This document shows positions 45,613 to 50,026 of a DNA stretch of 64,000 nt, one piece after another. Each line of letters begins with the position of its first letter. The first letter of the stretch is position 1. The DNA lies in NCBI RefSeq assembly GCF_002161805.1, contig NZ_NFIP01000008.1, forward strand, positions 62,001 to 126,000, read 5' to 3'. This DNA comes from Collinsella sp. An307. GTDB lineage: Bacteria > Actinomycetota > Coriobacteriia > Coriobacteriales > Coriobacteriaceae. The position numbers were made by a program, and so were the translations under genes. The notes beneath the pieces were generated by a model. It saw only the letters and a list, made by a program, of their open reading frames with translations. It did not search any database and had not been told where the DNA came from.

Positions 45613-47154
45613 TTATCGACGGCGCTTGAAGCCCATGGCGACGAGGCCCGCGCCCGCAAGACCGGAGAGCGCGGCTCCTGCGCAGGCGATGAGCGAGGCA
45701 TCGCCCGTAGCGGTGAGCGTTTCGCTAGCGTTCGTGGCGGCCGTCTGCTGAGGAGCGACATTGGCGAGCACGAACGTGGAGAAGTGCGAGGTCGTGAAGC
45801 TCACGGTGCCCGCTGCAGCGTCCACCGTGGCGTTCATGTCCGTCACCGTGCCGTCGTCAGCGACGTGGAATACATGCAGGTTCTCGGCGGAGAGCTTCTC
45901 GGGGATGGGAAGGGTGACCGTCACCTGGTCGCCTGCGGGAATAGCAAACTCAGCACCATTGGGGTCCTCGAGATGGATGTCGTAGACATACATCGTGGTG
46001 ACGCCCTGGATGGCGGTGTTCACGGCGTCGCCCGCCGCCGCTGCGGCATCCTCGCCGAGCCAGTTGGTTACGAGCGAGAGCATACTCCAAAGGCCGTCAT
46101 CGCCCATGCCCTCAGCGTCCACCGCGCCACTTACGGTGTGCGTGAGCGTGGCGCCTTGCGCATTGGTGATGACGGTCTCGCCGGAAAGCGTCAAATCGAG
46201 CGTCGCAGGGGAGTCGAGCTGGATGCTCAGCACCTGCGGACCGCCCGTTCGCAGGATGGTGCCGGTGCCGTTGAGCTGGTAGGAGAGCGCCTTGTCGGCA
46301 GGATAGGAAACCCACAGGCTCGTGTAGTAGTCTCCGCCGCGGTCACCGCGCAGGAAGTACACACCTGAGTTGGGCTCAGGATTGTAGAGCGGATCGTCAG
46401 AGTCCAGATAGCACGCGTCGATGGTCATCGTCCAGGGGGCGCTGCCGCCGGGGACGTCGAGCGTCATGCCGTCCGCCTTGTTCACCGTGAGCTGGTACCA
46501 CTCACCGAGTTCGGGGTTTTGGGGGAACGTCATGACGCCGTTCTCGATGGTGTAGGGGAGCAGTCGGTCGCTGTTTGGCATCCAGGGGTCGACAGCATCT
46601 ACATCCTCCCAGATGGCAGTGATGTCAAGCGAGTAGTAGGCGCTGTTCGTCATTGGGGCGAAGTCAGACGCCTCAAGGGGCTCGTCAAGGGGGGCCGTGG
46701 ACTCCCAGCCCACGAAGCGGTGGAGGGAGGCATCGCCGAACATCTCAATGTCGCCAGCGTCGTACAGCACGCCCTCGGCTCGCTGCTCAGCAACAAGGTC
46801 ATTCAGGGTTTTGCCCTGGCTGAGGTCGACGTCGATGCCGTAATCGGTGGGACCACCGGTGGAGTCGCCCAAGCGGAACCACACCAGATACGTTATGGTC
46901 GCATCAGCTTCCGTCTCGGGCGCGGTTTCGTTTTCGCCCTGGGTGCCTTTGGAGTCGGCCTCGGTGCCCGGCGTTGTGATGTCAGCGGCGAGCGTATTGG
47001 CAGCGTCCGTCTCCGTCTCGACAGAGAGTGTTTCGATCTCATCCTCCGCCCATGCGGTAGCAGGCGCGAGGCAGGCGGCGATGCTCGACGTGGCGAGCGC
47101 GAGCGAGGCCACGACCGAAACGACGCGCTGAACTCCCTTCCTGTTTCTCATCAT
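45613..47154 (-). CDS. Secreted surface protein with LTATG sorting signal
   Basis: 513 residues. A signal peptide of about 37 residues ends in ATAWA-ED. The middle is an unknown beta-rich part with Trp/Tyr-rich stretches. Near the end a VTVTLPIPEKL and GTVSFTTSHFSTFVL segment is a C-terminal module common in surface proteins. The end is LTATGD, a hydrophobic stretch and KRRR, a cell-wall sorting signal in which LTATG replaces LPxTG; LAxTG-like motifs are used by actinobacterial class E sortases. The ATG-ATG at 47154 follows AAAGGATGGG. No sortase gene is in the window. It is next to the LytTR system on the same strand. Confidence 0.8.
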   Translation of the reverse strand: MMRNRKGVQRVVSVVASLALATSSIAACLAPATAWAEDEIETLSVETETDAANTLAADITTPGTEADSKGTQGENETAPETEADATITYLVWFRLGDSTGGPTDYGIDVDLSQGKTLNDLVAEQRAEGVLYDAGDIEMFGDASLHRFVGWESTAPLDEPLEASDFAPMTNSAYYSLDITAIWEDVDAVDPWMPNSDRLLPYTIENGVMTFPQNPELGEWYQLTVNKADGMTLDVPGGSAPWTMTIDACYLDSDDPLYNPEPNSGVYFLRGDRGGDYYTSLWVSYPADKALSYQLNGTGTILRTGGPQVLSIQLDSPATLDLTLSGETVITNAQGATLTHTVSGAVDAEGMGDDGLWSMLSLVTNWLGEDAAAAAGDAVNTAIQGVTTMYVYDIHLEDPNGAEFAIPAGDQVTVTLPIPEKLSAENLHVFHVADDGTVTDMNATVDAAAGTVSFTTSHFSTFVLANVAPQQTAATNASETLTATGDASLIACAGAALSGLAGAGLVAMGFKRRR

Positions 47155-47303
47155 CCCATCCTTTCCCTGTTCGCCTTTGCCCGGCATGGGGCAAAAGCAT
47201 GGTATTGCCACAGTGAAAACCATTATGACGATAGGGTTTAGCTGGGAAAAGACGTTTTGCAGAACAGGTAGCTAAAGGAGCAGCATCGGTGTCGGGCGCC
47301 GCG

Positions 47304-48236
47304 CTACAGCTTCCAGATGGCACTCAGACAATATGTGTTCCCAGCGCGTGTGCAGGCGAGGTTTCCGTCGTGGCGCTCTACGATCTCGCGCATGATGGAA
47401 AGGCCAAGACCGTGGCGAGGGAGCGCGCCCAGCGCGGCGGCGCGTTGACGTTGCGCTGGCTTCTCTGGGTGCTGCGGCGCGCAGGCGTTCTCAACTTCGA
47501 GCAGGAAGTACTCCTGCATGGGGCGGGCGGCGAGTCTGATCCAGCACTCGCCCTCGGGCAGCGCTGAGGCGGCGTGGACGGCGTTGTCGAGCGCGTTGGC
47601 AAACAGCGCGCAGAGCTCGACGTCTGGCGTGGAAAGGTCAGCGGGCACCTCAGCGGAGATTGAAAGGTCGATGTGCTGGTCGGTGCACCATACGGCCTTG
47701 GCGTCCAAGAGCGCGGCGACGACGGGGTGCGCACAGCGAAGCGCCTCGGGGGTGCGCACGGCAGATGTCGCACCGTTGAGGTGCGTCTGCAGAGCATCGG
47801 TGTCGCCTGTGGCGAGGGCTTGCTCGATGCCGGCGAGCTCGCGGTCAAGGTCGGCGCGCACCCGGTCTGCCTCGTTGCGCATGCGGCGCATGAGGAGGTC
47901 GTAGTGCTTCTGGGCGGCGATCTGCCCTTCAAGGAGTTCGGCCCGTTCCGCCTCGCGGTCTGCGCGCTCGGCTGCCAGCAGGGTTTGGAAGAATAGGGGG
48001 TTCAGCGCGGCGCAGGCGATGCCCATGAGGGCCGCGGAGAACGCCATCGTTTGCCAGTGCCCAAAATAGGGGCGCAACGAGAACGCGCAGACGACAAACG
48101 CGATTTGGCTTGCGGGCATGAGCAGGTTGAGGAGGCGTCGCAGGAGCGGCAGCGCGCGCAGCAGATGCATCAGGTACGCGGCAGAGACGGCGAGTGCACC
48201 GACGGCTATGGCTCCGAGGACGATGAGGCTATTCAC
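47304..48236 (-). CDS. AgrC-like sensor protein with ATPase domain but no phospho-acceptor His
   Basis: 310 residues. Three membrane segments (about 3-22, 42-56, 62-88) precede a coiled-coil region and a GHKL-type ATPase. The N-box is FANALDNAVHAA (Asn214, Asn218) and the G-box HGLGLSIMREIVERHDG. In the dimerisation helix the position of the active His reads RMRNEADRVRADL, so Asn121 replaces His. It therefore looks able to bind ATP but not to phosphorylate itself on His. GTG at 48236 follows GCGAGGTGAGCG. It overlaps the preceding sensor gene by 8 nt, which has the complementary defect. Confidence 0.85.
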   Translation of the reverse strand: MNSLIVLGAIAVGALAVSAAYLMHLLRALPLLRRLLNLLMPASQIAFVVCAFSLRPYFGHWQTMAFSAALMGIACAALNPLFFQTLLAAERADREAERAELLEGQIAAQKHYDLLMRRMRNEADRVRADLDRELAGIEQALATGDTDALQTHLNGATSAVRTPEALRCAHPVVAALLDAKAVWCTDQHIDLSISAEVPADLSTPDVELCALFANALDNAVHAASALPEGECWIRLAARPMQEYFLLEVENACAPQHPEKPAQRQRAAALGALPRHGLGLSIMREIVERHDGNLACTRAGNTYCLSAIWKL

Positions 48237-49167
48237 GGGCGCTCACCTCGCGCTCGTGTTCATGTGCATCGCTTGCGGGCTGAGAGAGGGTGTGCCGGAG
48301 CGTTGCTACATAAGAGCGCGCACGCTCGGTGTCGCCCTGGGAGACAAGGCCCCTCAGCACTTGCAGATGGTTGCGCTGGTCATGGCGGAATCGCGCGGCA
48401 CGCTCGGCTTCGTGTGCGGTCGAGCGGGCGCCGGAGATGTAGATGGCGAGCTGGTCCTCGAGCGCGCCTGCGCGGGCGCGTGCCGCCTCGGCGCGATTGA
48501 ACCGCCTGAGCGACGTGAGGGCTACCGCATCGCCGGCGAGGCAGATGACGATGAGGGCAAGCACCACGGCGTAGACAATGGGTAGGGCCTTGCGGTATGT
48601 CATGAGCAGAAACGTTGCTTGCGCCACAAAGATGAATTGGGTGAAGAAGAAGATGAGATACGGGCGAGGGCGCATGGCATGCTCTGTTGACTCGGGCGTG
48701 TCAGGCGCGCCCGGCGCGCCGGCGGGGCGGAACACGCGGCGAGCAAGATAGGCGAGGAGGCGCCCGCCAATGAGCATGCCGCCAATGTTTACGATGCGTA
48801 TGGCAAGAACCTCGATGCTCAGGGCGTCGCGGCTGAGCTCCCAGCCCGCAAACACGAACACGATGCCAAAGCACACCTCGAGCGTAAACTGGAGAAACAG
48901 TATAAGAAAGCCGCAGATAAAACGTTGCCAATATGGCCCTGTCCAAAACAAGGACGGTAGCAGTATGTAGTTCCCGATGAACCCAACGATGTTCCAGGCG
49001 TTCATGGTGGTGGGGCTGGCGAGTACAAAGGCAAAAATCGGAACGACGCCTACCATGAGCGCCATAAAAAGGCCGGGTCGCCGCATGGGCAGCATCCACT
49101 GGTCGATAGCTCCAACAGCGGCATTGACGCCCAGAAGCGTGATGACGTTAAGAATCTCCAGGAGCAT
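48229..49167 (-). CDS. AgrC-like sensor protein with phospho-acceptor His but no ATPase domain
   Basis: 312 residues. Six or more membrane segments fill the first 215 residues. Then the AgrC/SpoB-type dimerisation helix follows, with RFRHDQRNHLQVL giving His262. Only 50 residues come after it, and no N-box or G-box is present, so the ATPase domain is absent. The stop is not a frameshift remnant: the next gene starts 8 nt before it with its own membrane segments. The natural reading is a split kinase, with the ATPase supplied by the downstream protein. The ATG at 49167 lies in the last unit of a 13-bp tandem repeat. Confidence 0.85.
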   Translation of the reverse strand: MLLEILNVITLLGVNAAVGAIDQWMLPMRRPGLFMALMVGVVPIFAFVLASPTTMNAWNIVGFIGNYILLPSLFWTGPYWQRFICGFLILFLQFTLEVCFGIVFVFAGWELSRDALSIEVLAIRIVNIGGMLIGGRLLAYLARRVFRPAGAPGAPDTPESTEHAMRPRPYLIFFFTQFIFVAQATFLLMTYRKALPIVYAVVLALIVICLAGDAVALTSLRRFNRAEAARARAGALEDQLAIYISGARSTAHEAERAARFRHDQRNHLQVLRGLVSQGDTERARSYVATLRHTLSQPASDAHEHEREVSARE

Positions 49168-49197
49168 GGCGCTACCGCATGGCGCTACCGCATGGCG
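49164..49197. repeat. 13-bp tandem repeat between the LytTR and sensor genes
   Basis: GCATGGCGCTACC occurs at 49164-49176 and 49177-49189, followed by a partial third unit GCATGGCG. On the coding strand each unit holds both an ATG and a TAG; the LytTR stop is in the second unit and the sensor start in the first (plus-strand order). Confidence 0.8.
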
Positions 49198-49994
49198 TGC
49201 CGGATGCGGAGATGGGCAAAAAGCGCGTCGCGCACACCTGCGCGCATGCGGCGGCTCACGGGGACCTCCTCGCCGCCGATGAGCGTGAGTGAGGAGGCGC
49301 CAAGCGAGGTCACGGCGTCGAGGTTGACGGCAAAGCTCTGGTGGCAGCGCACAAAGCGCGCGGGAAGCTCGCCCAGCAGCGCGGCGAGCCGGCCGTAGAT
49401 CTCAAACGTGTCGCGCGCGGTATGCACATGCACCACATGGAGCTTGCTCTCCAGATAGCGGATCTCGGCGGGGCGCACGATGCGCTCGGAACCTTTGAGG
49501 CGAAAACAGAGCGCCTCGTCGTTGGTGTGCTCTCTTGCAGCGAGCGCAAGCGTGAGCGCGTAGGCAACGTCGTCGCGCCGGAACGGCTTGGCGAGGTAGG
49601 CTACGTGCGGCGTGCGGTAGACCTTTGTGTGGAAGGTGTCGTAGCCGCTCGTATAGACGATCTGCGTGGTGGGTCGGTGGGCGAGGAGCTGCTCGACAAG
49701 GTCGATGCCCGTTTGATCTGCCCCCGCCGGGGCGGCGCTGTCCGCGGTGTTAGGACTTGGCTCCGGTTCGGCGAGCACAATGTCTATAAAGGCGATATCG
49801 GGCTCGTAGCCGTCGATGATGCTACCGATGAGCTCGGAGGCGGAGGTGAAACAACTCACGGCAAAGCTCGTCGGCACGCCATCGGTGCACCCGACGATGT
49901 CGGTCGTGCCCGCGCGCACAGAGAACGTCTCCACGAGCGCGGCGAGGGTGGCAGCAGCCTCGGGCTGATCGTCTAGTATGGCGACAGAAACCAT
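49185..49994 (-). CDS. LytTR-family response regulator
   Basis: 269 residues. The receiver has AILDDQ at the start, the phospho-acceptor Asp in IAFIDIVL and the Lys in YLAKPF, with a 20-residue Pro/Ala insert after IVLAEP. The C-terminal LytTR DNA-binding domain reads FRLKGSERIVRPAEIRYLES and FVRCHQSFAVNLDAV. It is of AgrA/VirR type and pairs with the two sensor genes after it. The ATG at 49994 follows GAGAGGGGATGCC. Direct repeats in the upstream gap fit its own binding site. Confidence 0.93.
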   Translation of the reverse strand: MVSVAILDDQPEAAATLAALVETFSVRAGTTDIVGCTDGVPTSFAVSCFTSASELIGSIIDGYEPDIAFIDIVLAEPEPSPNTADSAAPAGADQTGIDLVEQLLAHRPTTQIVYTSGYDTFHTKVYRTPHVAYLAKPFRRDDVAYALTLALAAREHTNDEALCFRLKGSERIVRPAEIRYLESKLHVVHVHTARDTFEIYGRLAALLGELPARFVRCHQSFAVNLDAVTSLGASSLTLIGGEEVPVSRRMRAGVRDALFAHLRIRHAMR

Positions 49995-50026
49995 GGCATC
50001 CCCTCTCGACGGCATCTCAAAAGCGC

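Follow-up and report, generated by a model that had tools for sequence, protein, structure and literature searches.

The acceptor histidine and the ATPase domain of an AgrC-type sensor kinase lie on two separate proteins in the gene pair described here, as well as at about 67 related loci. In the window (the whole stretch of DNA that was analysed, 64,000 nucleotides from Collinsella sp. An307), an RHDxxN-type motif and HATPase_c_5 are never joined in one chain of this pair; the motif is in the protein called H, and PF14501 is in its neighbour, called A. The usual picture of a membrane sensor kinase is a homodimer whose protomers are each able to use ATP and to accept phosphate. Judging from the sequences, H and A would be obligate partners in a membrane heterodimer; A would phosphorylate H in trans, and H~P would deliver the phosphate to a LytTR regulator. 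This reading is given a probability of about 0.77.

Two adjacent, overlapping sensor genes behind a LytTR regulator had been proposed from the sequence alone, and both open reading frames were recovered (Table 1). A Shine-Dalgarno-like GAGGTGAG precedes the start of A. In Pfam, HATPase_c_5 matches A alone and not H, while SPOB_a, the acceptor helix, gives a sub-threshold match in H alone; H ends 50 residues after His262, which bears out the earlier claim that H carries the acceptor without an ATPase. Seven membrane helices, not six, are predicted for H, and A has three hydrophobic segments. With regard to A, the sequence-only reading was right that an acceptor His is missing, but not in the residue that it aligned with this position: the Asn of RNEADRV lies seven residues upstream of the acceptor-aligned column, which is occupied by Ala128.

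At the 3' end of the regulator gene (window 49162-49190, minus strand), a short tandem duplication, GCCATGCGGTAGC, gives rise to additional ATG-CGG-TAG copies immediately ahead of the H start. The genome of Collinsella sp. An307 contains seven LytTR domains in total, and a second, diverged split pair is located behind its own LytTR regulator on contig C12 (L030, 4512-6508).

Table 1. Features of the split-kinase operon, in window coordinates.
Feature	Position	Strand	Remarks
LytTR response regulator, first gene of the operon	49185..50015	-	PF04397 1.7e-18; weak receiver match
H subunit: 7-TM membrane sensor and DHp with His262, without ATPase domain	48229..49167	-	312 aa
Acceptor motif RHDQRNHL of H, residues 261-268	48364..48387	-	His262 codon 48382-48384
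Overlap of H stop and A start, 8 nt	48229..48236	-	
A subunit: 3 TM, His-less DHp-like hairpin, ATPase (CA) domain	47304..48236	-	310 aa, GTG start; PF14501 (HATPase_c_5) 8.8e-12; PF02518 2.5e-9
Degenerate acceptor site RADLDREL of A	47835..47858	-	Arg127; Ala128 at the His position; from alignments
N-box NALDNA of A, residues 214-219	47580..47597	-	
G2-box HGLGL of A, residues 275-279	47400..47414	-	
Downstream sortase-type (LTATGD) surface protein	45613..47223	-	Possible target or last gene of the operon

The residues that define the two halves are conserved in a complementary manner across the class. R261, H262, and D263 are invariant in 62 H sequences; among the readable H subunits, His is present in 96/96, Asp at +1 in 88/96, and Asn at +4 in 89/96. 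The corresponding His column of A, placed by a joint alignment of A subunits, H subunits, and full-length kinases, is without His in 56 of the 58 A-type sequences (Glu 16, Ala 12, Arg 10, His 2, and others), and the Arg127 column is near-invariant (Arg in 47/58). N214, N218, and A219 of A are invariant in a 14-sequence alignment, and about 70 of 76 A-type sequences have their ATPase motifs intact.

To establish the spread of the pair, 60 relatives and then 398 Coriobacteriia genomes were searched with H and A profiles, and the loci were read. Conserved side-by-side pairs, the search for which in Coriobacteriia had been suggested as a check, were found: of about 70 A subunits, 68 are directly flanked by H, and two are close to the end of a contig. 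One of the A subunits, L097, has no H neighbour in its stretch, and the contig stops 937 bp behind it. Of four further apparent orphans, three (L037, L050, and L065) are stop-to-stop frames that overlap and do have H beside them, and the fourth (L092) is a full-length kinase. The pair occurs in three families of the order, namely f1 (with Collinsella), f2, and f5, of which the latter two are probably Eggerthellaceae and Atopobiaceae, and a LytTR regulator adjoins most of its relatives.

The search of Coriobacteriia yielded no full-length ortholog of either half; neither outcome that the earlier reading had named as refuting it, a complete kinase in one half or an unconserved pair, was observed. 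A-type sequences score down to about 1e-55, and mostly full-length kinases follow from about 1e-46 down, a range (about 1e-46 and weaker) with which the divergent f5 A subunits overlap. The full-length AgrC-type kinases of Coriobacteriia are separate, more distant paralogs and orthologs of neither half. Outside this class, a draw of 396 Actinomycetota genomes turned up four genomes with weak matches only (long open frames in three, a 193-aa frame in the fourth), none of them pair-like; PLSDB plasmids gave weak kinase-domain matches to A and nothing more. Overall, the pair is an old and widespread family.

The order of the genes is variable. RR-H-A (RR, response regulator) is found at 32 loci and RR-A-H at eight, along with RR-H-A-H, RR-H-H-A, H-RR-H-A, and H-H-H-A. 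Of the 56 loci at which H precedes A, 52 have a stop/start overlap of one of three lengths, 4 nt at 30 loci, 8 nt at 17, and 1 nt at 5; the overlap script picks the start nearest the stop, yet the values pile up far from evenly at 1, 4, and 8 nt. Simple breakage of one gene was rejected as the origin of the pair, since a membrane domain and a DHp hairpin are present in each half and the order is reversed at some loci. The same features suggest that a whole kinase was duplicated and that the two copies then underwent complementary loss, which best explains the pair.

In many operons, two or three H subunits stand beside a single A. The L055 (G238) cluster, RR-A-H-H-H-A-H, holds two A and four H within about 8 kb. 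H copies sharing an operon have a mean identity of 35% in the sensor and 63% in DHp, and DHp exceeds the sensor in 23 of 23 comparisons, six of which stem from one locus; H pairs between loci with 30-40% sensor identity have a mean DHp identity of 39%. The DHp likeness among copies of the same operon fits a common partner, which may be A, the regulator, or both, and it could be an effect of the shared response regulator alone. In two- or three-H operons, a single A probably serves several interchangeable sensors. The unequal numbers of H and A genes allow other stoichiometries.

Both halves are present in one frame at six loci (L076, L077, L080, L083, L089, and L104). The layout of these natural fusions is a sensor, a His-bearing DHp, a linker, two TM helices, a His-less DHp, and the ATPase. 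Five of the six have exactly two TM helices in the A part. As the H part ends inside, two TM helices in the A part keep the catalytic part cytoplasmic, as topology demands. L080 is doubtful as a fusion, with three TM helices in its A part and a truncated H sensor.

An AF2 model of the L076 fusion (649 residues, pLDDT 86, pTM 0.70) was built from H subunits and ATPase-only A fragments, since earlier mixed alignments misplaced the DHp domains, and only five aligned sequences cover its A-type DHp region. Residues 395-642 match the cytoplasmic kinase of Staphylococcus aureus AgrC (6e52/6e95) with a Z of 16.3; therefore, in this model, the A part appears to hold an AgrC-like DHp hairpin together with the ATPase domain. 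In the AF2 model of H (pLDDT 90.6), seven membrane helices are present, and the last TM helix extends as a long signalling helix that includes DHp alpha-1, followed by a short hairpin. A fold search with the H model against solved structures gave a best Z of 7.1, and nothing matched the 7-TM sensor convincingly.

A proposed mechanism can be described as follows. H and A are best seen as having descended, in complementary ways, from a polytopic AgrC/LytS-type kinase: both kept membrane helices and a DHp hairpin, but of the acceptor His and the ATPase domain only the former survived in H and only the latter in A. The two proteins are co-translated and would, in all likelihood, pair as an obligate heterodimer by means of a mixed DHp bundle. 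The 7-TM sensor of H, possibly jointly with A, would perceive the signal, upon which the ATPase of A would phosphorylate His262 of H in trans, and H~P would hand the phosphate to the LytTR regulator. We infer both the heterodimer and this direction of phosphotransfer; the sequences themselves show the two defects with their conservation, the adjacency of the genes, the fusions, and the matched loss of motifs. Free or unphosphorylated H may be a phosphatase, as the HDxxN motif is kept. According to PMC6066662, which cites George Cisar 2009, AgrC autophosphorylates in trans between protomers. By analogy, a His-less ATPase protomer and an ATPase-less His protomer would need no new chemical step.

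The main rival explanation is that H-H and A-A form separate homodimers, a Spo0B-like phosphotransferase and a kinase, respectively, which meet transiently in the manner of CheA3/CheA4 of Rhodobacter sphaeroides (PMC3591291). Each half has its own DHp-like hairpin, by which it could homodimerise, and the several H subunits per A in the operons would suit a transient kinase. However, a pure ATPase subunit could dispense with the hairpin, so that its retention counts for the heterodimer; both halves are membrane-embedded and co-translated, the natural fusions fix H:A at 1:1, and the related AgrC kinase acts in trans inside one dimer (PMC6066662). Separate homodimers therefore appear improbable, though they are the most serious competitor of the obligate heterodimer.

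It appears quite unlikely that A is not the kinase of H but a regulator or ATP sensor, with H receiving its phosphate from some other cellular kinase or working in unphosphorylated form. The evidence for such a role comes from a subclade that retains both genes despite lost ATPase motifs, and a non-catalytic role is possible there. N-box or G-box residues of A are lost at seven f5 loci (L088, L108, L110, L111, L112, L114, and L115; genera g50 and g86), where H keeps the acceptor His. Intact pairs are found in the same genomes, L086 and L087 with L110, L107 with L111, and L106 with L112, and the seven motif-loss pairs are probably non-catalytic derivatives that are still retained as pairs. Against such a role of A in general, almost every A subunit has conserved ATPase motifs, the two genes are adjacent or fused, and, where the motifs are lost, the Asp beside the His is usually lost too (five of these seven loci vs 0/60 others; Fisher p 2.2e-6, ignoring phylogeny). 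The distance matrices of H and A are correlated with an r of 0.87, and those of H-RR and A-RR with 0.79; mutual information between the DHp of H and the DHp-like region of A was not above that between the DHp of H and the ATPase domain (Neff 57). At the level of sequence, the fusions and the matched loss of catalytic residues support a joint function of the two halves.

A sequencing error or recent frameshift in an ordinary AgrC-type kinase gene, or a pseudogene, would agree with the adjacent and overlapping genes and has a precedent in Rv0601c of Mycobacterium tuberculosis, listed as an interrupted coding sequence (PMC2277376), but it was rejected and can hardly be credited, since a membrane domain and a DHp hairpin occur in H as well as in A, RR-A-H loci exist, and the same split recurs in about 67 loci, dozens of them far more distant, including independent assemblies. 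In one such assembly, a copy 91-92% identical is split identically, and uncultured Collinsella assemblies show the split at 90-91% identity.

Among known systems, AgrC/AgrA (HPK10) of S. aureus resembles H/A in the polytopic sensor, the RHD motif, the HATPase_c_5-type ATPase, and the LytTR regulator, and AgrC is the best structural match of the A part in the L076 fusion model. However, AgrC is one polypeptide acting as a homodimer, whereas in the H/A system the acceptor and the ATPase are on two membrane proteins. No match to AgrB (PF04647) was found in this genome; the control genomes were likewise all below the cut-off. The HK1/HK2 pair is described as adjacent genes for an ATPase-bearing and a His-bearing kinase protein with one regulator. 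This system, HK1/HK2-TcrA of M. tuberculosis (Rv0600c-Rv0602c), is named in PMC8965865, and it includes Rv0601c, which is listed as interrupted; unlike HK1/HK2, the H/A system has its own membrane and DHp parts in both halves and is conserved across a class.

CheA3/CheA4-CheY6 of R. sphaeroides is similar to H/A in that the His and the ATPase are on separate proteins, both of which are required for phosphorylation (PMC3591291). These proteins are soluble, belong to a chemotaxis cluster, and use an Hpt (P1) acceptor, whereas H and A are AgrC-type membrane sensors with DHp and side-by-side genes; no Hpt or CheW-like domain was found by Pfam in either of them. In Synechocystis, the kinase of the Hik36/Hik43-Rre6 system is also split over two genes, and the interaction of its halves was shown by two-hybrid (PMC7656254); unlike H/A, it is a CheA homolog with Hpt, its genes are at distant loci, and its sensor is unrelated. 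HisKA proteins without HATPase domains have been counted in SMART, and according to modelling, split kinases are capable of switch-like responses (PMC3591291). Split kinases are thus already known. In the open-access literature, we found no report of a split AgrC-type membrane kinase, in line with the earlier statement that no such system had been described, nor of a conserved split-kinase family in Coriobacteriia, nor of one ATPase subunit accompanied by several acceptor subunits, and these three aspects appear to be new.

A possible output of the system is the surface protein encoded downstream of A. In the Collinsella group, sortase-type LxxTGD surface proteins are encoded 84-175 bp downstream on the same strand at seven loci (L032, L034, L035, L043, L044, L096, and L109). 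In the window, a terminator-like hairpin is present beyond the surface-protein gene (45586-45552) and none between A and this gene; the latter may therefore be co-transcribed with the H/A genes. By inference, its product may also be controlled by the H/A system.

With little more than even confidence, the whole family can be regarded as class-wide obligate heterodimeric kinases, in which one A would be common to one to three interchangeable H subunits, so that signal inputs to a single LytTR regulator would be combinatorial; natural fusions and catalytically dead sister pairs would belong to the family as well. The asymmetry of such wild-type kinases would allow cis versus trans transfer, signal flow through a DHp dimer, and the separation of kinase and phosphatase to be studied without engineered mutants. 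The presence of several H subunits per A suggests a modular routing of multiple signals to one regulator. In addition, an H/A kinase would account for paired, seemingly defective kinase genes in common gut bacteria, which may be mistaken for pseudogenes.
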